Origin: Saprospiraceae bacterium
GTDB taxonomy: Bacteria; Bacteroidota; Bacteroidia; Chitinophagales; Saprospiraceae
Direction of reading: 5' to 3'
Assembly: GCA_030148525.1 (NCBI GenBank)
Contig: JASBTH010000351.1
Span: 1-32,470 of the forward strand
Length of the DNA: 32,470 nucleotides
Below are positions 18,538 through 32,470 of the stretch, piece by piece. The translations under genes were made by a program, and so were the position numbers. The notes beneath the pieces were generated by a model that was not told the DNA's origin, did no database searches, and was given only the letters and a program-made list of their open reading frames with translations. The stretch's first letter is position 1; every line of letters starts with the position of its first letter.

Positions 18538-18957
18538 ATGCGTAACCGCTGGCTTCATATTTCTCTGGCTTATCTACTGATCCTCAGCCAAACCGGGCTG
18601 TTGATCAACACCCACCTTTGCCAGGGTGAACGCAAGCAATCCTCCGTTTTTACGCAAGCGCCTACTTGTCACAGTAAGTCAGCAAAAGCAGAAATGCCCG
18701 CCTCTTGTCCCATGCATGCGCAAATGATGGATGAGAAGTCCTGCTGCGACGATGAGTCTTCCTATCATAAATCCGATATCGATCAGTGGGTAACTGCTAC
18801 GGTCATGCCGGGTACACCAGCAGCTGTGGTCTTGCCAAACCCCTGGACACCGCGCTTGATAATATCATCTCTGCAAGGCGTTTTTCCGCCTGTGTATGAA
18901 TCACCACCCAAAATTTTTTCAGACCTGGGAATCCTCTTTCAGGTCTTTCGGTTGTAG
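18538..18957 (+). CDS. Small Cys/His/Met-rich protein, HYC_CC_PP-like
   Basis: Encodes 139 residues. A hydrophobic N-terminal segment (LHISLAYLLILSQTGLLI) should export or anchor it. Then come NTHLCQGE, TCHSKS, SCPMHAQMMDEKSCCDDES and, near the end, FPPVYESPP. This order (H-x-C, CC, PP) fits the small Bacteroidota HYC_CC_PP family, known from NCBI naming and without an assigned function. Five Cys plus several His and Met suggest periplasmic metal binding (inference). It is the first gene of the efflux locus and has its own promoter. Confidence 0.7.
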   Translation: MRNRWLHISLAYLLILSQTGLLINTHLCQGERKQSSVFTQAPTCHSKSAKAEMPASCPMHAQMMDEKSCCDDESSYHKSDIDQWVTATVMPGTPAAVVLPNPWTPRLIISSLQGVFPPVYESPPKIFSDLGILFQVFRL

Positions 18958-18972
18958 CCACATCTGTATCTG

Positions 18973-19086
18973 ATTGGTTCGCGCCAGGCGAATCAATGTA
19001 CTTGCTATGCCTCTTCCTCAGGAAGCGGGCCATTGCTTTACGGGTGTTCCGGCGAAAACTTACCGACCAAATGTAAAAAGTCGGTA
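18973..19086 (+). promoter_or_regulatory. Structured leader before the CusA-type gene
   Basis: Three stems lie in the 202-base gap between the first small gene and the pump gene: ATTGGTTCGC/GCGAATCAAT (18973-18982 / 18988-18997, one G-U pair), CTTCC-TCA-GGAAG (19013-19025) and TACCGAC/GTCGGTA (19061-19067 / 19080-19086). They could form a regulatory or processing leader. This is pattern only; no known riboswitch consensus was recognised. Confidence 0.35.
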
Positions 19087-19159
19087 TCTACGGACTCGAA
19101 GATGCTTTACATCCTCGCCGTCTGTACAGATTCTGGAATACCTTCAGACAGGTGTTCTT

Positions 19160-22100
19160 ATGATCAAGCAAATCATCCATTTTTTTCTGGCGAATAAGCT
19201 GGTGGCTTTCTTGCTGCTTTTGCTGTTCGCAGGTTGGGGGCTGACCACAGCGCCCATTCAAATTATGCCTTCCTGGTGGCCACAGGATCCGGTAGCCGTT
19301 GATGCTATTCCCAACCTCGGAGAAAATCAGCAAATTGTTTTTACCCGGTGGCCGGGACGCTCTCCCCAAGACGTAGAAGACCAGGTGACCTACCCGCTGA
19401 CCAGTGCCCTTCTGGGCGTTCCGGGGGTGAAATCTGTACGGTCCAACTCTATGTTTGGTTTTTCCAGCATCTACCTCATCTTCGAAGAGGACGTGGAGTT
19501 TTACTGGAGTCGTTCGCGAATCCTGGAGAAACTAAATGCCCTCCCTCCGGGAACCTTACCGGAGGAAGTTCAACCCAGCCTGGGTCCCGATGCTACGGCG
19601 CTCGGGCAGATATATTGGTATACACTGGAAGGACGCGATCCGGATGGTCATCCTACCGGAGGGTGGGATCCCCAGGAGTTGCGATCCGTTCAGGATTTCT
19701 ACGTCAAATATGGTCTGGCAACTGCCGCAGGTGTCTCGGAGGTAGCATCCGTGGGAGGCTACGTACGCGAATACCAGATCGATGTGAATCCCGATGCCAT
19801 GAAGCGTTTTGGCGTAAGCCTGCCTCAGGTCATGCAGGCGGTACGCAATGCTAACCTGGATGTCGGTGCCCAAACTATGGAGATAAACCTGGCCGAATAC
19901 TTTGTACGGGGACTCGGTTACATCGAAGACCTGGAAGATATCGAGCAAACGGTAGTCACCACCCGGAATAACGTTCCGATTACTATCGGCGATCTGGCCT
20001 TCGTTAACGAGGGTCCCGCTACGCGACGCGGGGCGCTCGATAAGTCCGGCGCAGAGGCAGTCGGTGGTGTGGTCGTGGCCCGCTACGGGGCCAATCCAAT
20101 GGCTGTGATCGATAACGTTAAAGACAAAATCGAGGAGATTAGTCCGGGCCTTCCGGCAAAGACACTGGAAGACGGAACACGGTCGCAAGTTACAATCGTA
20201 CCCTTTTACGACCGGACCGACTTGATCAATGAGACCATTGGTACCCTTGACGAAGCCCTGCGCCTGGAGATCCTGATCACGGTCATTGTGGTCATTCTGA
20301 TGCTGATGAATCTGCGCTCCTCCTTACTGGTCTCGGGCTTGTTACCCGCAGCGGTATTGATGTGCTTTATTGCTATGCGGTATTTCGGGGTCGATGCTAA
20401 CATCGTTGCCTTGTCCGGGATTGCGATTGCCATTGGCACCATGGTCGATATGGGCATTGTACTGACCGAGAGTATTGTATTAAGGTTGGAGGATCCTCCC
20501 GAAGGGGAGAGTCTTTTCCAATCGGTACTCTCGGCCAGTAGTGAGGTAGCATCTGCCGTAGTTACGGCGGTAGCTACGACCATTATCAGTTTTCTACCGG
20601 TATTTACCATGGAAGCTGCGGAGGGAAAGTTGTTCCGGCCTTTGGCTTTTACCAAAACCTTTGCTCTGCTGGCCACCATTATCCTGGCCATTACCATTCT
20701 GCCACCTCTGGCCCAACTGCTGTTTTCGGTAGCCCGGGGTGCTAAATGGCGCCGCTACCTGACCAATGGGTTGCTTATGGGAGCGGGGTTTGTGTTGCTT
20801 GGATTTGGATTACAGATTGCTGGCGGGCTTTTTGCACTGGTTGGTCTGGCCGGAGTGGGGACGCTATTTTTAGAGGGCCGTTGGTCCCCAAGCCGGATGC
20901 TGTGGTTCAACCGCGTGAAGAATGGCGTATTTGCCGCCATTGTAACGTTTTTGTTGGCCCGGCTTTGGATGCCGCTGGGAGTAGCGGAATCGGTGGTGGT
21001 CAATGCCCTTTTCGTAGGGGCGCTTATTGCGGTTTTGCTACTGTTTTTCCAGGGTATGATCCGCTTCTATGAGCCTATACTTAGGTGGTGCCTGCGCTTC
21101 AAGTGGGCTTTTCTGATCCTGCCGGTGGTACTGATTGTTTTCGGCCTCCGGGTATGGCGCAATACGGGGGAAGAATTTATGCCCAGCCTCGATGAGGGGG
21201 CCTTTTTGCTCATGCCTACCTCCATGCCTCATTCGGGGATGCAGGAGAATATGAAGAACTTACGCCTGCTCGATATGGCCGTGACCTCCATCCCCGAGGT
21301 AGAGCAAGTGGTTGGCAAACTGGGCCGGGCCGAAACAGCTCTCGATCCCGCACCTATTTCCATGTACGAGAATGTCATTCTCTATAAATCAGAATATAAG
21401 ACCGACGAGCGGGGCCGACGCCTTCGCTTTAAGGTGAATGAATACGGCAACTTCATGCGGGACGAAGCCGGCGAATTAATGCCCGATAAAGATGGTCGTT
21501 ATTTCCGGCAGTGGCGTGATCACATTCAAACGCCCGATGATATTTGGGATGAGATCGTCAAGGTAACCCGTTTGCCGGGAGTGACCTCGGCGCCGAAATT
21601 GCAGCCTATCGAAACCCGCCTCGTCATGCTGCAAACAGGTATGCGTGCCCCGATGGGTATCAAGGTCAGAGGGCGGGACCTTGCCGAGATCGAGGCCTTC
21701 GGGCTGGCACTGGAGCCCTTGCTCAAGGATGTGGAAGGCGTAAAAGATCCGGCCGTTTTTGCCGAACGGATCATCGGTAAGCCCTATCTGGAATTCGATA
21801 TCGATCGCGGGGCTATTGCCCGACACGGACTCACTATTGTCGATGTGCAACAGCATATCCAGGCGGCCATAGGTGGTATGACTATGACCCAAACGGTCGA
21901 AGGTCGGGAGCGGTATGCGGTTCGCGTGCGGTATCCCAGGGAGTTGCGTAATGATCCGGCTGTCGCCAAAAATATCTTGCTGCCCAGCAGTAGCGGCGGG
22001 CAAATCCCGCTGGGTGAGTTAGTTGATATTACCTATTCCCAAGGCCCGCAATCGATCAAAAGCGAGGATGGGTTCCTCGTGGGCTATGTGCTGTTCGATA

Positions 22101-22864
22101 AAGAAGATGGCTACGCCGAAGTGGAGGTCGTCGAAGCTGCTAAACGGTATTTGCAGGAACAGATCGAGGCGGGTGTCCTGGAGGTTCCTGCCGGTATCAA
22201 CTACGATTTTGCGGGGAACTACGAGCAACAACAGCGCGCCAGCAAACGACTCGCGATCGTGATGCCCATTGCCCTTATGCTCATTTTCCTGATCCTGTAC
22301 TTTCAGTTCCGGTCGGTCGCCATTTCGCTCATGGTGTTTTCGGGGGTCTTTGTGGCCTTTGCCGGCGGGTTTATTCTGATCGGCTGGTACAGTTGGGAGG
22401 GATTTCTGGATGTGACGTTATTGGGCACCAATTTGCGCGACTTATTTCAGGTGCAACCCATTAACCTCAGCGTAGCCGTTTGGGTAGGATTTTTGGCGCT
22501 GTTTGGCATTGCGACCGATGATGGGGTCTTGGTGGCCACCTTCCTCAAGGATAGTTTCCAGGCCAATGAGCCCCAATCGATCCCCGAGATTCGCGATGCG
22601 GTGGTGGAGGGTGGTCTGCGACGGGTACGGCCGGCTATGATGACGACGGCCACCACCATTTTGGCTCTGTTGCCTATCCTGACCTCTACGGGGCGCGGTG
22701 CCGATATTATGGTACCCATGGCTATCCCCTCCTTTGGGGGTATGCTGTTCCAGTCGATCACCATGTTTACAGTGCCGGTCTTATTCGCTCTGTGGAAAGA
22801 GGGACAATTCCATGTGCACCGGCGATTTTCAAAACCTCAAAACGGAACCGATGAAACGCATTAG
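19160..22864 (+). CDS. cusA: CusA/CzcA-family heavy-metal efflux RND pump
   Basis: Inner membrane proton-driven pump of 1234 residues, taking metal ions from the periplasm (and perhaps cytoplasm) to an outer membrane channel. Signs: N-terminal MIKQIIHFFLANKLVAFLLL, WPGRSPQDVEDQVTYPLTSALLGVPGVKSVRS, the proton-relay Asp430 in GTMVDMGIVLTES, and GMTMTQTVEGRERYAVRVRYP. It is about 190 residues longer than E. coli CusA. There is an insertion with about four predicted helices between TM6 and TM7 (about 526-633), and an extra periplasmic segment (about 747-794). Of the E. coli Met triad only Met823 seems kept, so the ion is uncertain. The ATG at 19160 starts the first TM helix. Its end overlaps the next gene by 14 bases. 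Confidence 0.93.
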   Translation: MIKQIIHFFLANKLVAFLLLLLFAGWGLTTAPIQIMPSWWPQDPVAVDAIPNLGENQQIVFTRWPGRSPQDVEDQVTYPLTSALLGVPGVKSVRSNSMFGFSSIYLIFEEDVEFYWSRSRILEKLNALPPGTLPEEVQPSLGPDATALGQIYWYTLEGRDPDGHPTGGWDPQELRSVQDFYVKYGLATAAGVSEVASVGGYVREYQIDVNPDAMKRFGVSLPQVMQAVRNANLDVGAQTMEINLAEYFVRGLGYIEDLEDIEQTVVTTRNNVPITIGDLAFVNEGPATRRGALDKSGAEAVGGVVVARYGANPMAVIDNVKDKIEEISPGLPAKTLEDGTRSQVTIVPFYDRTDLINETIGTLDEALRLEILITVIVVILMLMNLRSSLLVSGLLPAAVLMCFIAMRYFGVDANIVALSGIAIAIGTMVDMGIVLTESIVLRLEDPPEGESLFQSVLSASSEVASAVVTAVATTIISFLPVFTMEAAEGKLFRPLAFTKTFALLATIILAITILPPLAQLLFSVARGAKWRRYLTNGLLMGAGFVLLGFGLQIAGGLFALVGLAGVGTLFLEGRWSPSRMLWFNRVKNGVFAAIVTFLLARLWMPLGVAESVVVNALFVGALIAVLLLFFQGMIRFYEPILRWCLRFKWAFLILPVVLIVFGLRVWRNTGEEFMPSLDEGAFLLMPTSMPHSGMQENMKNLRLLDMAVTSIPEVEQVVGKLGRAETALDPAPISMYENVILYKSEYKTDERGRRLRFKVNEYGNFMRDEAGELMPDKDGRYFRQWRDHIQTPDDIWDEIVKVTRLPGVTSAPKLQPIETRLVMLQTGMRAPMGIKVRGRDLAEIEAFGLALEPLLKDVEGVKDPAVFAERIIGKPYLEFDIDRGAIARHGLTIVDVQQHIQAAIGGMTMTQTVEGRERYAVRVRYPRELRNDPAVAKNILLPSSSGGQIPLGELVDITYSQGPQSIKSEDGFLVGYVLFDKEDGYAEVEVVEAAKRYLQEQIEAGVLEVPAGINYDFAGNYEQQQRASKRLAIVMPIALMLIFLILYFQFRSVAISLMVFSGVFVAFAGGFILIGWYSWEGFLDVTLLGTNLRDLFQVQPINLSVAVWVGFLALFGIATDDGVLVATFLKDSFQANEPQSIPEIRDAVVEGGLRRVRPAMMTTATTILALLPILTSTGRGADIMVPMAIPSFGGMLFQSITMFTVPVLFALWKEGQFHVHRRFSKPQNGTDETH

Positions 22865-24056
22865 CACCCTACTGCTCTTCTTGTCGTTTGCCCTGCTCGC
22901 AAATACCCAGCCATTGGATACCTTACTGGATCAATTGCGTAGTGAAAATCCGGAACTACGGGCTTTGGACAGAATGTACCGTGCGGACCAACTGGTGCCC
23001 CCGCAGGTCGACGATTGGGCGGATACCGAATTTGGTGTCGGGTTCGGTCTGTTACCCACGGAGACGCGATTGGGCCCCCAGCAAGTCAGGTTGAGTGTCA
23101 CCCAAATGCTGCCCTGGCCGGGCCGTCTGGATGCGAAGCGGAATTTGGCGGAAGCCAAAGCGGGGGTCAGTCAGTGGGATGCCCCCACCCGGACACTGCA
23201 GATGGAACGCCGGTTTACGGAAGCTTACTACCGACTGTATGAACTGCGTAAGACCGATGGAATTATTTCCCGCCAACTGGCCATCATTGACCAATTACGC
23301 CGATTGCTGCTGCAGCGGGTAGCGGCCGGGCAGGCCCGAACCACCGCCCTGCTACGGCTGGATCTGCGGGAAGAGGAATTACAAGAGCAGCGACAATTGC
23401 TGGGGTTGCGGCAACAGATACCCCTCTCGATAATGCAGGAATTATTGGGTACGGACCGGCCCGTTTCTACACCCGACACCCTGGTGGTAGCTTTTTTCCC
23501 GGAAGGGGTAGAGGTTGATTCCTCGCATCCGGAGATCGTCCGGCTTGACCAACAGCTCCGGGTGGCTGAATCTGAGATAGCCATCGCTGGTCTGCAAAGT
23601 AAACCCTCGCTGGGGGTTGGATTGGATTATTTTCTGGTAGGTAAGCGTTCCGATGCTGTGCCCAGTGGTAATGGCCGCGACATTGTGCTGCCGCGGGTAA
23701 TGCTTTCGGTGCCATTGGGTGGTGATCGCTACGAGAAGCGACAGCAGGAGCAGCGGGTTCGAATGGGCGCGATTGCGGATAGGGAAGAAGCATTAATTCT
23801 GGCCTTACGGCAAAAGCAGACCGAAGCACGGGCCCGGTACCAGGAAGCCCTGCTGGCGCTGAATAGCTACGCCCGGCAGCAGGAAGTACTTCGCGAGACC
23901 ATTGAACTGGAAATACGGGCATTGAGTACGGGCGAAACCCGGCTGGATGACGTCCTGGACCTCTACAACCGGGAAATAGATTATCAGATTAAAGAATTAC
24001 GAGCGATCGTTGCCACCCATCTGGCCCTGGCCGATTTGGTGAGCACGTTGCCCTAA
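22851..24056 (+). CDS. CusC/TolC-type outer membrane efflux factor
   Basis: Encodes 401 residues. A signal peptide (MKRISTLLLFLSFALLANTQ) is followed by two long coiled-coil repeats of the OEP family: LDTLLDQLRSENPELRALDRMY and LRLDLREEELQEQRQLLGLRQQ in the first, SEIAIAGLQSKPSLGVGLDYFL and ETIELEIRALSTGETRLDDVLDLYNREIDYQIKELRAIVA in the second. It should trimerise as the outer membrane exit duct of the pump. The ATG overlaps the end of the pump gene by 14 bases, showing translational coupling, and the adaptor gene follows after 12 bases. Confidence 0.9.
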   Translation: MKRISTLLLFLSFALLANTQPLDTLLDQLRSENPELRALDRMYRADQLVPPQVDDWADTEFGVGFGLLPTETRLGPQQVRLSVTQMLPWPGRLDAKRNLAEAKAGVSQWDAPTRTLQMERRFTEAYYRLYELRKTDGIISRQLAIIDQLRRLLLQRVAAGQARTTALLRLDLREEELQEQRQLLGLRQQIPLSIMQELLGTDRPVSTPDTLVVAFFPEGVEVDSSHPEIVRLDQQLRVAESEIAIAGLQSKPSLGVGLDYFLVGKRSDAVPSGNGRDIVLPRVMLSVPLGGDRYEKRQQEQRVRMGAIADREEALILALRQKQTEARARYQEALLALNSYARQQEVLRETIELEIRALSTGETRLDDVLDLYNREIDYQIKELRAIVATHLALADLVSTLP

Positions 24057-24068
24057 ATACTATTGTAT

Positions 24069-25814
24069 ATGAAACCGATCTATCAAATACTCATTTTGGT
24101 GCTGGCGCTGGCCCTTGGGCTGGGTGGAGGCTACCTGCTGTTTGGCGGAGGAGGGGAATCTTCTCAGCACGATCATTCCGAAATGACGGATACGGCAGAA
24201 GGGGAAGCAGAAACCATATACACCTGTTCCATGCACCCCCAGATCCGACAGCCGGAACCCGGTTTGTGTCCGATCTGCGAAATGGACCTCATTCCGGTGG
24301 GCTCGAATGAATCGAGTGATCCGCTGGTGTTTACGATGACCAAAGAGGCCGCTGGTCTGGCAAATATTCAAACCACGAAAATCGGAAGTCAGTCGGGGCA
24401 ACGGGTGGAAGTTTCGGTTAGTGGCCGTATCGCTGCCGATGAACGGCGCCTGGCCGCTCAGACTACCCACGTTGGAGGACGTATCGAAAAGCTCTACGTC
24501 AGCTTTACCGGTGAACAAGTGCGGGCCGGGCAACGCCTGGCAACAGTGTATTCGCCAGAGTTGATCACCGCTCAGCAGGAGCTGATACAGGCGATTGAAT
24601 TCCGCGGCGCAGAAAGTGATTTGGCGGAAGCCGCACGAAAAAAATTGGCGTATTGGAAACTATCGGAGGACTTTATCCAGGAGGTAATAAATACCCGGGA
24701 GGTCCAGGAAACAATCGATGTACTGGCTGATCAGGGAGGTACGGTCGCCGATCGCAGGATTGCCGTGGGCGATTATGTGCAGCGTGGCGACGTGCTGTTC
24801 AATCTGGTTGACCTGTCTCGTCTTTGGGTATTGCTCGATGTATACGAAGCCGATCTGGCTAAGGTAAGTGTAGGTGACCAGGTTCGGTTTACCACCACCG
24901 CAATACCCGAACGGATATTTGACGCACGCATCCGGTTTATTGATCCGCTCATTGATCCTCAGACCCGAACCGCCAGGGCTCGCGCCGAAATATCGAACCG
25001 TTCCGGCAAGCTGAAACCGGACATGCTGGTAAAGGGCACTATTATCGGGAGTAGTGCTATGGCTGCAGATCAGGTAGTGGTGCCGGCTTCTGCCGTACTG
25101 TGGACCGGTAAACGATCAGTGGTGTACCTGGTGGAACCCGGCAGCAGTGTGCCCTCCTTCCGGTTTCGGGAGATCGTACTGGGCGAACGGGTAGGCAATG
25201 GGTACCCGGTTAAGTCAGGACTGCGGGGTGGCGAAGAAGTGGTGACCAACGGGGCTTTTGTAATCGATGCCGCCGCTCAATTGAACAATCAAGCCAGTAT
25301 GATGAATCGCGATGTACTCCTGGAAGGCAGTGAGGGTAAACCCTCGGTGCCGGATTACCGGGATGAGGCGGACGCTGGTTTTCAAAATGACTTCACGGCA
25401 ATGACCGAGGCCTACATTGCGTTAAAAGATGCTTTCGTCGCTACGGATGCTACTGCGGCAAGAGAAGCAGCTACTACCATGGATCAGCGATTACGGCAAA
25501 TAGATGCCGATCTGCTCACCGGTGCGGTATATTCCTTTTGGCAACAGCAAAAAGGGGCGCTGGAAACGCATCTTGATAACCTGATTACAAGCAATAATGT
25601 GGCGGAACAACGACAGCAATTTGAATTTATCTCTGCTTTGATGATCGATCTTGTTCGAGCCTTTGGTGCCGAAGATACATTGTACGTGCAGCATTGCCCC
25701 ATGGCTTTCAATAATAAGGGAGCCGATTGGCTGGCTTACGAGGACCAGATCCTGAATCCCTATTTCGGTGACAAAATGCTACGGTGCGGGGTCGTTCAGG
25801 ATAGTATTCAATAA
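24069..25814 (+). CDS. cusB: CusB-type membrane fusion adaptor with metal-binding N terminus and DUF3347
   Basis: Encodes 581 residues. An N-terminal membrane anchor (about 5-25) and a His/acidic stretch lead to a heavy-metal-binding motif (YTCSMHPQIRQPEPGLCPIC, Cys53, Met55, His56, Cys67, Cys70). HlyD/CusB barrel and hairpin domains follow (about 110-425). A C-terminal DUF3347 (about 440-575, LYVQHCPMAFNNKGADW and PYFGDKMLRCG) adds another Cys/Met/His site. The adaptor links pump to outer membrane factor and passes metal to the pump in the E. coli system. A TTG at 24063 is also in frame; ATG 24069 is preferred. Confidence 0.93.
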   Translation: MKPIYQILILVLALALGLGGGYLLFGGGGESSQHDHSEMTDTAEGEAETIYTCSMHPQIRQPEPGLCPICEMDLIPVGSNESSDPLVFTMTKEAAGLANIQTTKIGSQSGQRVEVSVSGRIAADERRLAAQTTHVGGRIEKLYVSFTGEQVRAGQRLATVYSPELITAQQELIQAIEFRGAESDLAEAARKKLAYWKLSEDFIQEVINTREVQETIDVLADQGGTVADRRIAVGDYVQRGDVLFNLVDLSRLWVLLDVYEADLAKVSVGDQVRFTTTAIPERIFDARIRFIDPLIDPQTRTARARAEISNRSGKLKPDMLVKGTIIGSSAMAADQVVVPASAVLWTGKRSVVYLVEPGSSVPSFRFREIVLGERVGNGYPVKSGLRGGEEVVTNGAFVIDAAAQLNNQASMMNRDVLLEGSEGKPSVPDYRDEADAGFQNDFTAMTEAYIALKDAFVATDATAAREAATTMDQRLRQIDADLLTGAVYSFWQQQKGALETHLDNLITSNNVAEQRQQFEFISALMIDLVRAFGAEDTLYVQHCPMAFNNKGADWLAYEDQILNPYFGDKMLRCGVVQDSIQ

Positions 25815-25830
25815 CACGTAAATCAAAACA

Positions 25831-26454
25831 ATGACTGAAAAATCAATATCGCCATCTCGAAGAACACTGCTTTGGTTGGTACTCATAACGGCTGGGTTCA
25901 TGACGGGTTGTTTGCCCGGATCGGAACCGGAAAACAGTAATTCGACGGAGACAACTGTATCGTCGTCTGGAAAGGAAACAGGTGATGATACTGCCGGTAA
26001 ACCCCTGAGTCCGCGCAAGGAGGCCATGGGAACTATTGCTGGTAACACCATAACGATCGACTACAGTGCCCCCAGCAAACGGGGCCGGCTTATTTTTGGA
26101 GGTCTCGTCGGATTTGACAGGGTATGGGTTACCGGGGCCCACAAAGCCACGTCTATTACTTTTTCTGAAAAAGTGACCATAGCAGGAAAAGAATTAGAGG
26201 CCGGAACCTATGGTCTATTCACTATTCCCGGGGAAGAGCAATGGACCGTCATTCTCAACGAGAATTACCAGATGCACCTGGCCGATGATTACGATGCTAA
26301 TCAGGATATAGTACGTATACCGGTACAACCACAACGACTTTCGAAAGTGGTCGAACGGCTAACATTTTCAATAGAAGAAACGGGGCCCGAAGAAGGTACG
26401 GTACGAATCGCCTGGGATGATACAGCAGTCTCTTTCTCTGTAAAGAATGTATGA
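25831..26454 (+). CDS. DUF2911 lipoprotein
   Basis: Encodes 207 residues. The lipoprotein signal (LLWLVLITAGFMTGC) puts the lipidated cysteine at 27. After a Ser/Thr/Asp-rich linker comes a DUF2911 domain (TITIDYSAPSKRGRLIFGGLV, WVTGAHKATSITFSEKVTIAGKELEAGTYGLFTIPGEEQWTVILN), a beta-sandwich family common in Bacteroidota with no assigned activity. It starts 16 bases after the adaptor stop and so is part of the efflux operon. How it helps the pump, if at all, is unknown. Confidence 0.85.
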   Translation: MTEKSISPSRRTLLWLVLITAGFMTGCLPGSEPENSNSTETTVSSSGKETGDDTAGKPLSPRKEAMGTIAGNTITIDYSAPSKRGRLIFGGLVGFDRVWVTGAHKATSITFSEKVTIAGKELEAGTYGLFTIPGEEQWTVILNENYQMHLADDYDANQDIVRIPVQPQRLSKVVERLTFSIEETGPEEGTVRIAWDDTAVSFSVKNV

Positions 26455-26550
26455 GTGTCTGTATGGTCTTTGTGTATGGCTCGTGGCATCTCGTAAGAGA
26501 GACATCAGATGATCCGCGAACCACTGCTGTAAATAACAAAAAAGAATAAC

Positions 26551-27765
26551 ATGGATAATTTGATAAAAAATGTAGGTGTTTGGCTGGTCTGTGTGCTAGT
26601 CTTGTCGGGCTGCCAGTCCATCGGAACCGAAGAAGTCTCCTGGAATCGGTCAGCCTTACCAACTATTTCCGAATACGGTGGCGAAAGCCGCCTTACGGTG
26701 CTACACGACGGTGATGTAGCTATGAGCTGGGTAGAATACCTCAACGATACGACCGATCAATTACGGTGGACGCGTTGGGAGGGAACGGAATGGTCAGAGC
26801 CGATTGCCATTGCTACGGGCAGCGACTGGTTTGTGAACTGGGCTGATTTTCCGTCTTTGACGGCATTTGGTGATGGAAAAAGTATGGCGGCCCATTGGCT
26901 GCAAAAAAGCGCTGGCGGAACCTACGATTATGAGGTACGTGTATCGATCTCAAATGATGGGGGGCAGTCCTGGGGCCCTTCCTTTGTGCTGCACCAGGAC
27001 AGTGTGCCCGCCGAACATGGTTTTGTTACTTTGAAACCGTACGGTCGTGATAAGCTCATGGCGGTTTGGCTAGACGGGAGATTTACCAAAGTGGATGATG
27101 GAGCCATGACCCTGCGGACCGCCACCTTTGATACTGCCGGGAATATCACCGATCAGGTTGAATTAGATCACCGTATTTGTGACTGTTGCCAGACCGACCT
27201 GGTCGTCGATGGGGAAGAGGCGATGGTTGTATATCGCGATCGGTCGCAAGAGGAGGTCCGGGATATATCTTTTGTGCGTAAAACGGCTGATGGGTGGACA
27301 GAGCCCCGGCCCGTACATCCCGACAAGTGGTTGATCGCCGGCTGTCCGGTTAATGGTCCGGCGGTTACTAAAAACAGTTCGGGGTACTGGTCTGCCTGGT
27401 TTACCGGCGCTGAAAATACACCCAAAGTGTTTGCTGCTCGCATGGCTCCCGGTGCCCAGGGCTTCGCGGATACCGTAAGGCTGGACTTCGGGAACCCCCT
27501 GGGTCGGGTGGACATGGTAACATCGGGAGATCAGGTATATATTTCCTGGATGGAAAACGGAGAGGATGGCCGGGCGCAGATCTGTTTGGCCTCCATTGAT
27601 ACCGAAGGACTCATCCACCGCCAAAAAATAGCAAAGGTGAGTGGGGCCCGCTCTTCTGGCTTTCCGGTTTTGGTGAAAGCCAGTGAACAATCGCTATTCT
27701 TATCTTATACAAAAGTGACCGAAAACGGACAAAGAGTGGCGGTAGAAAGAATTGATATTCAGTAA
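26551..27765 (+). CDS. Sialidase-like beta-propeller lipoprotein with CDCC motif
   Basis: Encodes 404 residues. The lipoprotein signal (WLVCVLVLSGC) puts the lipidated cysteine at 21. The body is a BNR/sialidase-like propeller (VSISNDGGQSWGPSF, repeated W-x-x-W strands). An unusual Cys cluster, HRICDCCQTDLVV (Cys210, Cys212, Cys213), and Cys265 in IAGCPVNGPA may lie close in the fold and bind metal (inference). No sialidase Arg triad could be shown. It follows DUF2911 after 96 bases and precedes the Cys-rich microprotein by 3 bases. Confidence 0.8.
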   Translation: MDNLIKNVGVWLVCVLVLSGCQSIGTEEVSWNRSALPTISEYGGESRLTVLHDGDVAMSWVEYLNDTTDQLRWTRWEGTEWSEPIAIATGSDWFVNWADFPSLTAFGDGKSMAAHWLQKSAGGTYDYEVRVSISNDGGQSWGPSFVLHQDSVPAEHGFVTLKPYGRDKLMAVWLDGRFTKVDDGAMTLRTATFDTAGNITDQVELDHRICDCCQTDLVVDGEEAMVVYRDRSQEEVRDISFVRKTADGWTEPRPVHPDKWLIAGCPVNGPAVTKNSSGYWSAWFTGAENTPKVFAARMAPGAQGFADTVRLDFGNPLGRVDMVTSGDQVYISWMENGEDGRAQICLASIDTEGLIHRQKIAKVSGARSSGFPVLVKASEQSLFLSYTKVTENGQRVAVERIDIQ

Positions 27766-27768
27766 GCT

Positions 27769-27900
27769 ATGAAAAAATGCTGCGGAGATCATTGTGATTG
27801 CGCCAAGCGCAGTCCGGTTCAGCGATGGCTTAACCGGATCGGACTCCTGCTGTTTTTGTTGGTACTCGGAACGGTTGTAATAGCGCTAATGCTATCCTGA
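27769..27900 (+). CDS. 43-residue Cys-rich membrane microprotein
   Basis: ATG at 27769 to TGA at 27898-27900 encodes MKKCCGDHCDCAKRSPVQRW followed by LNRIGLLLFLLVLGTVVIALMLS. The N-terminal CCGDHCDC cluster has four Cys and one His within eight residues, then a basic stretch and one membrane helix. By the positive-inside rule the Cys cluster should face the cytoplasm. The start is 3 bases after the propeller stop, so the two are very likely cotranscribed. I recognise no named family. Confidence 0.7.
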   Translation: MKKCCGDHCDCAKRSPVQRWLNRIGLLLFLLVLGTVVIALMLS

Positions 27901-28104
27901 CATGTAGTTGGAGGAGGCCAGGCCCTGAGATCCATATTCCGGCCACAGCAGGTAGTGTTTCCTTATGAAGAATATCGGTGGACGGCAGGAACCTGTTGGT
28001 CGACAGACCGGGCCTGATGCTCTTCCTCATGCCTAAAAATGGCATGTGCCGGGCGTGCAAAAAATAATTGTAGATCAATTTCATAACCTTTTTAATCGAA
28101 TACT
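27901..28104 (+). other. Gap before the His-rich lipoprotein gene, with a hairpin
   Basis: The 204-base gap holds no supported gene. A perfect 6-base hairpin CATGCC-taaaaat-GGCATG (28028-28046) lies about 60 bases before the next ATG. It could be a weak terminator or a processing site dividing the operon. Confidence 0.3.
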
Positions 28105-28410
28105 ATGCGTATCAACCTGCGTTTAATGACTTCCCTGCTATTGGTAGCAGGCCTGATGACTTTTGTTGCTTGTTCCGGTGGTGGTAATGACCAAGCCGGT
28201 GATTCCGAAACCGTGGAAATGGACGGAGAACACATGGGACCTGAATATACGTCAGCCTACGTATGCCCTATGCACTGCGAGGGTAGCGGCAGCGACGAGC
28301 CGGGTAAGTGTCCCGTCTGTGGAATGGAGTACGTCGCTAAGGACGAGTTGCAAGAGCAGGAAGGCCATCAGGACCACGGCCATGATGACCACGAAGGACA
28401 CAACCACTAA
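28105..28410 (+). CDS. Lipoprotein with heavy-metal-binding motif and His-rich tail
   Basis: Encodes 101 residues. The lipoprotein signal (LLLVAGLMTFVAC) puts the lipidated cysteine at 23. A heavy-metal-binding motif follows (YVCPMHCEGSGSDEPGKCPV, with Cys54, Met56, His57, Cys58, Cys69 and Cys72), the same type as in the CusB-type adaptor. The last 14 residues carry six His alternating with acidic residues. It should bind metal in the periplasm or on the cell surface and probably works with the efflux pump (inference). It closes the locus, and a 10-base perfect hairpin follows. Confidence 0.85.
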   Translation: MRINLRLMTSLLLVAGLMTFVACSGGGNDQAGDSETVEMDGEHMGPEYTSAYVCPMHCEGSGSDEPGKCPVCGMEYVAKDELQEQEGHQDHGHDDHEGHNH

Positions 28411-28956: not shown

Positions 28957-31900
28957 ATGAATCTTTTTACCAGTCTGTGCCAGCGCACGGGCCTGGTTAT
29001 GGCGTTCTTTCTAACCTTTGCCATTACCAGTACAACAGCGTTCAACACCAGTTACGACAATAACTCAATTGAAGACGAACGCGTTGCCATCCGTGATCTG
29101 GACATCCCAAAAATGACGGCAGATAATGCTACCAACCCATTGACTCAAGCTACTGGCTCCGATTGCGGATGCCAGGATCAGGTCAATGTTCGTATGAACG
29201 GAAATTGCACGTACACCCTTACTCTTAACCAGGTAGGTGCCGGTGCGTGTACCGAAGCTCGCCGTTTGATAGTTAACGATGCCAATCCCGGGAACGGGGG
29301 CATTATTGATTGCCCGGGCACCTATACCTACGGTATTTTCGACGGTAACGATGACCTGATATGTTGGGGAGAAGTGCTCGCCGAAGACAAAACCGGTCCC
29401 CGGGTTGATGAGGTTGAAACAGTATACGAGACTATTCCCTGTATCTTTGCCGCTGACTTCGTCAACAATGTGGAAACTGCTAATCCTAACTCACCCTACT
29501 ACATTGGCCGGGTTTTATTCGAGGATAATTGTGGCGACTGCGGTTGCAGTATCGAAACTAAGTTTTTCGACCAGATAGAATACTTTACCAATTGCGAGAA
29601 TCGTGGTATTCAGTTTGGTGATGAGTTCCTGTATGCCCGGATATCCCGTAAATACACCTCGACCGACTGTGAAGGCAATAGTACTGATTATACGGTCACG
29701 TACGACTTCGTGCGTCCCGCTCTGGATGACCTGGTCCTGCTCGACGACGTAACGGAACAGACCTGCAACGCAGCGGGCGTAACACCACCTGCCGCGTACC
29801 CCTATTGGGAAGTGCCTTTCCCTACGGCCGATGGCGACTACAAATTAGGCCTCGATGAGGTCGACTGCAATTACTCCATCTCTATCGACGAAACCGAATT
29901 CCCCGTGTGTAACGGAACCGGCCGGAAAATTCAGCGCTACATCAGCGTGTTTGACTGGTGTGCCGGCACGTCCGATTACGTGGATACCGTCGTCATTAAA
30001 ATAGGTGACTTTGCACCCCCCACCTTCAGAGGAAAAGCCAAAGCCATGGGGACGGGCCTGCAAAAAGACCTCAACTACAACCAGTCGATTACCAGTAATG
30101 AGGTGATCGTTGATCTTGATTCTCTGCAGACCCTGAAAAGCATGGGGATGGTTACGACCATTTCCACCCGCCCTCAGGACTGCACGGGAGCTTTTTCCAT
30201 TGACCTGAATTCCCTGCGTTCGACCTTTGGTTTTGATATTGAAGATTGCAGTATTCGCGAGCCTTCCGTATCCATCATGACCTTTGGTCCCAAGGTTATT
30301 GGCGGGTTCCCCACGGGCGATTCCATTTGGCGCGAAGGAAACTACCCAATGATTAATGGTTTTGCCGCCGGTATTCCCGTCGGTATTCACGCCCTGATCC
30401 TGGAGGTAGCCGATGAGTGCTATAATTCCGCCAAAGGCGTTATTTTCTTCCAGGTAAAAGACCAGATAGCTCCCGTGATGTCATGCGATGATCAATTGAA
30501 TATCACGCTGTCAACGGGTGGTTACGGTCGGGTATTTGCCAGTGATGTCGACGAAGGCAGTTCTGATAATTGCGCGCTGGCGAGCCTGAAAATCAGGCGT
30601 TCAGTAAACGAAGCCTGTATCAATGCCGGAACCTTCGACATGGACGATCTGGTCCAGGAGGATGGTGTTTTCTACACCATCTGGAACGATTACGTAGAAT
30701 TCTTCTGTTGCGATGCCGGTCAGAATGTGGTGATCGAACTACAGGGTACAGACAATGCGGTTGACCCTATCATGAAGATGGATATGCCCAACCGCAACAT
30801 CTGCTGGCTGGAGTTATTGATCGAAGATAAAGTGGACCCCCAGTGTACCAATCTGCCTCCGGCAATTACGACCTGCGACGACGAGGTCCTCAACAACCTC
30901 GATGACCTTTCCTTCTTTGGTACTCCGCAGGAGCCATTCAGCAACTGTCAGTCTTTTGGCATTGAGGAATTGGATCCCATTGTCGACCTCGACCGCTGCA
31001 ATGTGGGTACGATCACCCGCCAGTGGGTCGCGGTAGGTAACGGCGAACAATCCGATATATGTGAGCAACTGATTACCGTAGTGGCACGCCACGACTATTG
31101 GGTGCGCTTCCCGGCTGACGCAGAAACCACTTGCGGTGATACACCTTCTACGGAAGGGGTAACCTTTGTAGAGGATGCTTGTGATCTGATGGCCGTAAGT
31201 TCGGAGGATGAGACCTTCACCGCTACGCAGGATCCTAATGCATGTTATAAGATCTTCCGGACCTACCGGGTGATCAACTGGTGCGAATACGATGGTGAGG
31301 CACAGCCAACTATCGTTTCCCGCGACTGGGACGGCTACAATGGTACCAATCCGCAAAGCCCGGATGGTGATGATAACCCCGGTGACGAAGCTATTTACGT
31401 TCATGTAAAGCGCGACTTCTCCGACGATCAGCCCGATACGGTCTACTATGATAATACCGACAATCCGTACGACAACAGCGTATCCTTCGGTGGTTCTACC
31501 TACGGCTACTGGTGGCGGGTTATTTCGGGTAGCGATGATCCGACCGAAGAGGCTTACTACGAAGGAAATGGCTCCGTATGGTCCGATGATGGAAACCAAA
31601 ACGATAGCGATATTTCCGGAAACACCCAAAGCGATGACAACGATTACCGCTACGGTAGCTTTGGATTCTTCCAGTATACCCAGCATATCGTGGTCTACGA
31701 TGATGTAGATCCGGAGATCACCGTTGAAGGGGAAGACACCTTTGCTTCACTCGATGGCGAGAACTGTACGGGAGACGTAACCTTCCTGGTGGCTGCTACT
31801 GATCTTTGTACCGACGATACCCTCGACGTAAGTATCACCGTCCTGCTCGACGTAGGAAACGATGGTGTCACCGATGCTGATGTAACGTCTAATCTGGTAA

Positions 31901-32470
31901 ATGGTACCTTTAGTGCCGAGTATCCACAAGGACAACACCGCCTGGTCTTCACAGCTAATGATGGCTGTGGCAATGCAGTGACTGTGAGCCGGGTGTTCGA
32001 CATAGTGGACCGCAAAGCACCAGCTCCGATCTGTATCAATGGCATCTCCATTGAATTGATGCCAAGTGAAGATGATACAACCGGCGGCTTTATGGAAGTT
32101 TGGGCCAGTGACTTTATAGCATCGGCAGTCTTTGACTGTACCGGTCAGGGTGAGCCGGGTGGTGATTTCAACTTGCCGATGATCACGGAAGAGAACTACT
32201 TCATTGTTCGCGATGAAATCGAGGGCGTCAGCGAGTTCGATCCCGATAATCCGCAGACGGGCGTGGCCTTCAATTGTAATGATGCCGGCCAGTTGATCCC
32301 CGTAGAGGTTCATACGGTCGATCTGGAAGGAAATAACGACTACTGCCTGACCTATGTCCAGGTTGATGACAATATGGATATCTGTCCGGACGGGGAAGGT
32401 GAAGGTCTGGTCTCCGGTTCGGTGAAAACTGCACGTAATACCCAGGTGGACGGTGTGGAAGTATCGCTGT
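28957..32470 (+). CDS. Giant Cys-rich secreted HYR-like/adhesin-type protein (3' end outside window)
   Basis: The frame from the ATG at 28957 stays open to the right edge, at least 1171 codons. A signal peptide (MNLFTSLCQRTGLVMAFFLT, cleavage likely after TTA at residue 28) is followed by Asp/Thr/Cys-rich beta modules with paired Cys, such as DCGCQDQVNVRMNGNCTYTL, NCGDCGCSIETKF and APVMSCDDQLNITLSTGGYG, and HYR-like text late on (TFASLDGENCTGDVTFLVAA, FTANDGCGNAVTVSRVFDIV). The last visible residues (GLVSGSVKTARNTQVDGVEV) look like the start of a carboxypeptidase-regulatory-like repeat. Proteins of this build in Saprospiria usually end in a type IX secretion sorting domain; that end is not visible. 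Role probably surface adhesion or matrix (inference). Confidence 0.88.
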   Translation, partial: MNLFTSLCQRTGLVMAFFLTFAITSTTAFNTSYDNNSIEDERVAIRDLDIPKMTADNATNPLTQATGSDCGCQDQVNVRMNGNCTYTLTLNQVGAGACTEARRLIVNDANPGNGGIIDCPGTYTYGIFDGNDDLICWGEVLAEDKTGPRVDEVETVYETIPCIFAADFVNNVETANPNSPYYIGRVLFEDNCGDCGCSIETKFFDQIEYFTNCENRGIQFGDEFLYARISRKYTSTDCEGNSTDYTVTYDFVRPALDDLVLLDDVTEQTCNAAGVTPPAAYPYWEVPFPTADGDYKLGLDEVDCNYSISIDETEFPVCNGTGRKIQRYISVFDWCAGTSDYVDTVVIKIGDFAPPTFRGKAKAMGTGLQKDLNYNQSITSNEVIVDLDSLQTLKSMGMVTTISTRPQDCTGAFSIDLNSLRSTFGFDIEDCSIREPSVSIMTFGPKVIGGFPTGDSIWREGNYPMINGFAAGIPVGIHALILEVADECYNSAKGVIFFQVKDQIAPVMSCDDQLNITLSTGGYGRVFASDVDEGSSDNCALASLKIRRSVNEACINAGTFDMDDLVQEDGVFYTIWNDYVEFFCCDAGQNVVIELQGTDNAVDPIMKMDMPNRNICWLELLIEDKVDPQCTNLPPAITTCDDEVLNNLDDLSFFGTPQEPFSNCQSFGIEELDPIVDLDRCNVGTITRQWVAVGNGEQSDICEQLITVVARHDYWVRFPADAETTCGDTPSTEGVTFVEDACDLMAVSSEDETFTATQDPNACYKIFRTYRVINWCEYDGEAQPTIVSRDWDGYNGTNPQSPDGDDNPGDEAIYVHVKRDFSDDQPDTVYYDNTDNPYDNSVSFGGSTYGYWWRVISGSDDPTEEAYYEGNGSVWSDDGNQNDSDISGNTQSDDNDYRYGSFGFFQYTQHIVVYDDVDPEITVEGEDTFASLDGENCTGDVTFLVAATDLCTDDTLDVSITVLLDVGNDGVTDADVTSNLVNGTFSAEYPQGQHRLVFTANDGCGNAVTVSRVFDIVDRKAPAPICINGISIELMPSEDDTTGGFMEVWASDFIASAVFDCTGQGEPGGDFNLPMITEENYFIVRDEIEGVSEFDPDNPQTGVAFNCNDAGQLIPVEVHTVDLEGNNDYCLTYVQVDDNMDICPDGEGEGLVSGSVKTARNTQVDGVEVSL

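Follow-up and report, generated by a model that had tools for sequence, protein, structure and literature searches.

The CusCBA-type locus and its accessory genes

The window, the whole stretch of DNA analysed here, is the 32,470-nucleotide contig JASBTH010000351.1 from the genome assembly (5.0 Mb in 622 contigs) of a Saprospiraceae bacterium. Its positions 18538-28410 hold eight open reading frames (ORFs), all on the + strand and most of them separated by short gaps or overlapping, that encode a CusA/CusC/CusB-type metal efflux pump and five accessory proteins. An earlier note on this DNA had read the locus as such a core with five co-directional accessory genes, most of them bearing metal-ligand motifs and together forming a metal relay that feeds the pump. 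The gene content stands: all eight ORFs exist, in the following order.

18538..18957, + strand: HYC_CC_PP family protein (NF047658, 41.9 bits against a cut-off of 28)
19160..22864, + strand: CusA-type permease of the heavy-metal-efflux resistance-nodulation-division (HME-RND) group, 1234 aa (TIGR00914, 777.6 against 701.45 bits, over the whole protein)
22851..24056, + strand: CusC-type, TolC-like outer-membrane factor (OEP PF02321, 54.4 against 22 bits)
24069..25814, + strand: CusB-type adaptor (HlyD_D23 PF16576, HMBD PF19335 and DUF3347 PF11827, all above cut-off)
25831..26454, + strand: DUF2911 lipoprotein (PF11138, 169 bits against a gathering cut-off of 27)
26551..27765, + strand: four-cysteine lipoprotein with a predicted sialidase-fold beta-propeller (BNR_2 below threshold; AlphaFold2 model; invariant cysteines)
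27178..27189, + strand: codons of the propeller's C-D-C-C motif (C210-C213), with the C265 codon at 27343-27345
27769..27900, + strand: 43-aa M-K-x-C-C single-helix microprotein (MKKCCGDHCDC...), with relatives in Cus and other copper islands
28105..28410, + strand: stand-alone HMBD lipoprotein with CPMHC...CPVCGM and a His-rich tail (PF19335, 36.3 against 23.6 bits)

The start of cusC overlaps the end of cusA, and fewer than 20 bases lie between CusC and CusB, CusB and DUF2911, and the propeller and the microprotein; start codons were set at 19160 for CusA, at 22851 for CusC and at 24069, or the TTG at 24063, for CusB. A promoter scan returned hits at chance level (11 against 10.3 expected), and PADLOC gave no defence-system match for the four window proteins tested. 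Downstream, an ORF of at least 1171 aa (28957-32469) runs off the contig end and encodes a large, secreted-looking product.

The metal, left by the earlier note among Cu, Ag, Zn, Co and Ni, could be narrowed through the permease. Residues M685, M735 and M823 of the window CusA correspond to M573, M623 and M672 of Escherichia coli CusA (alignment to 3t51/3k07), and this triad is kept in 81/81 CusA sequences compared; a three-methionine site of this kind marks Cu/Ag-type pumps. The nearest relatives of the window protein come from Lewinellaceae, Saprospiraceae and Phaeodactylibacter. In relatives, neighbouring genes encode DUF3347 proteins, multicopper oxidases and CopA-type ATPases, the oxidases and ATPases having been recognised by reading the sequences. 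Because the triad is kept and copper genes neighbour CusA in relatives, copper or silver is the likely substrate. Relative to the E. coli protein, CusA carries a mostly hydrophobic insert of ~110 aa (residues 518-633, window 20711-21058) that falls between aligned blocks one and two. The adaptor had been described as CusB-type; the family call holds, and what had been overlooked is that the protein possesses an HMBD of its own at the N-terminus (residues 51-77; 44.9 against 23.6 bits) and a DUF3347 domain at the C-terminus (447-536). None of the eight window proteins matched the CusF family in Pfam or NCBIfam at E<=0.1; a CusF-type metallochaperone is not required of all Cus systems.

Two side observations concern pumps at other loci. 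CusA and CusC are fused into one ORF of 1633-1646 aa at five of them (L113:10001-14920, L116:9980-14920, L122:1494-6407, L131:10001-14914 and L133:10001-14902), and at the three fusion junctions read, a signal-peptide-like stretch separates the RND part from the TolC part, a hint that the product is a polyprotein cleaved by signal peptidase I. Several loci also encode, downstream of CusB, small AraC-type regulators (~190 aa, HTH_18) with an N-terminal MVCxRC or MICxRC (L088:13221-13793, L091:10257-10817, L092:10380-10952, L110:22765-23346); none was seen in the window.

Recurrence of the accessory genes at copper loci

We read 19 CusA loci of the same order and 80 named CusA-orthologue loci, counting neighbours within a radius of 10 kb. 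Among the 80, HYC_CC_PP genes were found at 61, HMBD-like genes at 35, the propeller at 14 (including weak calls at L122 and L130), DUF2911 at 8 and the microprotein at 7; an automatic tally of 15/80 for the microprotein holds spurious matches that do not start with MKxCC. The locus counts are not independent, because some loci are near-duplicates (L117/L178 and L151/L153). The accessory set differs by locus, from none to all five. L276, a 19 kb locus of a genome in the same class but a different order, encodes HYC_CC_PP, CusA, CusC, CusB, the microprotein, DUF3347 proteins, a TlpA-like thioredoxin, the propeller, DUF2911, a multicopper oxidase and an HMBD-bearing CopA-type ATPase; the HMBD motif there sits on the ATPase and on CusB, without a separate HMBD lipoprotein. 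The gene-neighbourhood search that the earlier note had proposed thus returned all five families beside CusA. Non-conservation, which that note had named as telling against its proposal, is not what was found, because the accessory families recur at CusA loci. These data support a view of the accessory genes as conserved companions of copper-pump loci.

Genome-wide counts separate two of the families. Across 48 of the genomes that hold the 80 named loci, the propeller occurs in 24, with one copy each save one genome with two. Of the 25 copies, 12 have CusA within 10 kb where chance would give 0.09, an expectation that ignores shared ancestry. DUF2911, in the same genomes and with shared ancestry likewise ignored, has 197 copies, 6 of them at CusA against 0.75 expected.

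The claim that the accessory proteins carry ligand motifs survives for most of them, which possess invariant Cys, His or Met sites, and fails for DUF2911. In HYC_CC_PP, whose gene lies directly upstream of CusA in most relatives, H26, C28, C44, C57, C69 and C70 are nearly invariant (60-68 of 68 sequences). The lipoprotein described as having a CxMH...CxxC motif and a His-rich tail proved to be an HMBD protein. A ligand-rich motif was looked for in the window DUF2911 sequence and none was found; its conserved histidines are only H104 (11/13) and H149 (12/13), and a fold search returned no match at E<=0.001. In Roseivirga (L151/L153) the DUF2911 gene follows cusC immediately, and in L110 it sits between CusC and CusB. 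A literature search that left out most subscription journals found no paper on HYC_CC_PP by name and only passing mentions of DUF2911 and DUF3347. The combination of a Cus pump with HYC_CC_PP, HMBD and DUF2911 proteins, all known families, is a variant of copper islands. Two such islands also encode a Cys-rich 109-aa protein resembling copper-storage (Csp) proteins (L123:18607-18936 and L139:19753-20082).

The propeller lipoprotein and the M(A)KxCC microprotein

The CDCC-bearing propeller lipoprotein picked out by the earlier note is borne out, with C-D-C-C at C210-C213 and a beta-propeller as the predicted fold. An AlphaFold2 model built on a 29-row alignment reached a predicted local distance difference test score (pLDDT) of 92.5, and its fold is sialidase-like (Foldseek E 1.6e-11, VIA-align Z up to 32.8), with lyases, lectins and sialidases as best structural matches. 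The BNR_2 match (PF13088) stays below the gathering cut-off (24.4 against 31.4 bits), and comparison with PDB sequences gave nothing credible. C210, C212, C213, C265, R229, R237, D238, W260, P266 and G269 are invariant in 36 sequences, three of them alphaproteobacterial; four later sequences also keep CxCC and CPxxGP, so that the CxCC...CP site is present in 40/40. Most copper-linked members further keep H148, H156 and M186, and many homologues possess a His-rich loop that is absent from the window protein.

Propeller genes are embedded in several copper contexts. The family occurs in 63 plasmid records, mostly labelled 'sialidase family protein'. Two Roseobacteraceae plasmid loci (L281, L282) are copper operons with TolC, copper oxidase, copper-binding protein, azurin and cytochrome c genes, and at the third Roseobacteraceae locus read (L283) putative multicopper oxidases are encoded a few kb from the propeller. 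In a class-wide sample chosen without regard to CusA (9 copies, 8 genomes), four propellers belong to Cus or copper islands and two stand at the ends of nos operons; one forms a TlpA-propeller pair and two have no copper gene nearby. In all, 6/9 copies have a copper context. The nos operon L293, scanned for nos families, encodes NosZ (TIGR04246, E 6e-282), NosL, NosD (TIGR04247), ABC genes and a CopD-like protein; L294 was read as having the same gene order. At L043, L044, L046, L151, L153, L276, L295 and L296, the gene directly upstream of the propeller, overlapping it or within 4 nucleotides, encodes a TlpA-like thioredoxin. As a separate observation, distant propeller relatives adjoin a TonB receptor and a small CxGKC protein (L050:13023-13397, L051:2251-2625, L052:13151-13516 and L055:10273-10662), and possibly serve copper uptake.

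The 43-residue CCGDHCDC membrane microprotein was likewise found as described, with one predicted helix, and has no Pfam or NCBIfam match. Single-sequence search gave only noise beyond the query itself; relatives were found by a motif and hydrophobicity scan of Cus loci, followed by a genome-wide scan and a hidden Markov model (HMM). They define a family named here M(A)KxCC, of 39-46 aa with an N-terminal M(A)KxCC and one hydrophobic helix, which the window member fits; M1, K2, C4 and C5 are kept in 12/12 aligned members, and the later members at L274 and L276 start with MAKPCC. The genome-wide scan for ATGAARNNNTGYTGY covered 43.3 Mb in seven genomes, picked because the microprotein is present in them. 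It returned 55 sites, and a product of 39-44 aa with a hydrophobic helix is encoded at only 8 of them: 7 lie at Cus loci and 1 in another copper island. Run against 395 genomes of the phylum, the HMM gave four new clear matches (E<1e-7), all in copper islands; the inspected matches with E>1e-5 were unrelated, and a plasmid search with one relative gave no match. The microprotein stands next to a CopA P-type ATPase more often than next to CusA: it adjoins CopA directly in L113 and L139 and overlaps it by 4 nucleotides in L101, and its other frequent neighbours are multicopper oxidase, HMA or HMBD genes. Positive charge (K/R excess) is greater before than after the helix in 16/16 members, so that by the positive-inside rule the cysteine head is predicted to be cytoplasmic (N-in).

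Interpretation and comparison with known systems

Computation showed how the genes are assembled and how they recur, which residues are invariant, what fold the propeller is predicted to have and which copper contexts surround the genes; the functions given below are read from sequence, predicted fold and neighbourhood. We favour, at a probability of roughly 0.55, an operon for the detoxification of copper(I)/silver(I) whose accessory genes belong to a shared Bacteroidota copper-handling kit and are not parts of the pump. CusCBA would expel periplasmic Cu(I) across the outer membrane, as its families and Met triad suggest, while the accessory genes would be shuffled between copper loci. HYC_CC_PP, the HMBD lipoprotein and the HMBD and DUF3347 domains of CusB may bind or buffer periplasmic Cu(I) in CusF's place. 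The propeller would hold Cu(I) at its CxCC...C site, kept reduced by the TlpA-like thioredoxin where the genes are paired, and could pass it on to whichever partner comes from its own operon, be that an efflux adaptor, nitrous oxide reductase or a multicopper oxidase. The inner-membrane microprotein, with its CC head in the cytoplasm, may donate Cu(I) to, or regulate, the CopA ATPase or the pump. The specific and joint proposal, that the propeller is a TlpA-reduced Cu(I) carrier serving efflux pumps, multicopper oxidases and nitrous oxide reductase in two phyla and that the M(A)KxCC microprotein donates to or regulates CopA-type ATPases, is tentative, and we consider it less likely than not.

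Several observations weigh against this interpretation. DUF2911 is a multi-copy family with a weaker Cus link, and the enrichment figures for it and the propeller ignore relatedness among genomes. Propellers at L039, L040, L041, L045, L047, L048 and L049 have no copper gene nearby; the microprotein relative at L275 lacks the second cysteine (MKECY); and no TlpA, multicopper oxidase or CopA gene was found beside these genes in the window. The closeness of the four propeller cysteines is itself a prediction, taken from loop positions on the modelled fold.

Four other explanations were weighed, from the most to the least probable. The propeller's CxCC...C could be a thiol-redox site, exchanging disulfides with TlpA and guarding periplasmic thiols under copper stress, and not a copper carrier. 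The TlpA gene directly adjacent in 8 loci fits this, as do two plasmid loci, one with a DsbA-family gene a few kb away and one with a protein-disulfide isomerase gene; however, the His-rich loop of many homologues points to metal ligands, as do H148, H156 and M186, conserved among copper-linked members, and we regard a purely redox role as doubtful.

The relay proposed by the earlier note, in which the accessory proteins hand the ion on across compartments and finally to CusB and CusA, draws on one co-directional cluster that encodes ligand-rich proteins of several predicted locations, and on the recurrence of all five families at CusA loci. It does not hold up well: the propeller and the microprotein also occur in copper loci with no Cus gene seen alongside (nos and plasmid operons) or beside CopA and not CusA; the cysteines of the microprotein are predicted to be cytoplasmic; and DUF2911 is multi-copy and without a clear ligand set. 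Because the modules occur without Cus and the set ranges from none to all five among loci, a relay into CusA is not required by the data, and because they occur without Cus, a shared copper-handling kit fits better. We consider the relay unlikely.

Hitch-hiking, in which unrelated envelope proteins that do not act on copper are co-inherited in a mobile copper-resistance island, would account for the copies of DUF2911 and the propeller outside copper loci and for the patchy distribution of the islands among genomes. It is improbable in view of a propeller that is single-copy in most genomes, has an invariant four-cysteine site, adjoins Cus genes in gene orders that are independent between Saprospiria and Roseivirga/Cyclobacteriaceae, and is also found in alphaproteobacterial copper operons and in nos operons. 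A glycan-active enzyme or lectin, as the top structural matches and the public sialidase annotation would have it, is very improbable for a protein with a sub-threshold BNR_2 match, an invariant set of four cysteines plus R229, R237, D238, W260, P266 and G269, and copper genes, not glycan loci, around the examples examined.

The pump is ordinary, and the value of the locus lies in two testable gene families. If the propeller carries copper, copper homeostasis would gain a new component, and so perhaps would NosZ maturation; the microprotein, smaller than annotation usually keeps, could be a small regulator of or donor for copper ATPases. Both look new, the microprotein family having no match in two curated libraries and the propeller no copper role in the literature found, a search that left out most subscription journals and is hence no proof of novelty.

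Compared with E. coli CusCBA(F), the window shares the Met triad of the RND permease as well as the permease itself, an adaptor and an outer-membrane factor; it differs in having no CusF match, an adaptor with HMBD and DUF3347, the ~110-aa permease insert and five extra genes. Its HMBD (PF19335) and HYC_CC_PP (NF047658) proteins exceed the curated cut-offs of families that are both defined by sequence only. The cop/cup/cus/gig systems of Cupriavidus metallidurans resemble the locus in that a pump and other resistance components act together in one organism (PMC10304878); the accessory families, as far as known, differ. A further system to compare is copper delivery to nitrous oxide reductase by NosL and NosD (PMC6530538), since the propeller ends nos operons beside NosL/NosD-type genes. 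The propeller has no sequence match to these proteins, and a demonstrated role for NosL stands against a proposed one for the propeller; a copper-delivery role of the propeller would be analogous to that of NosL/NosD.

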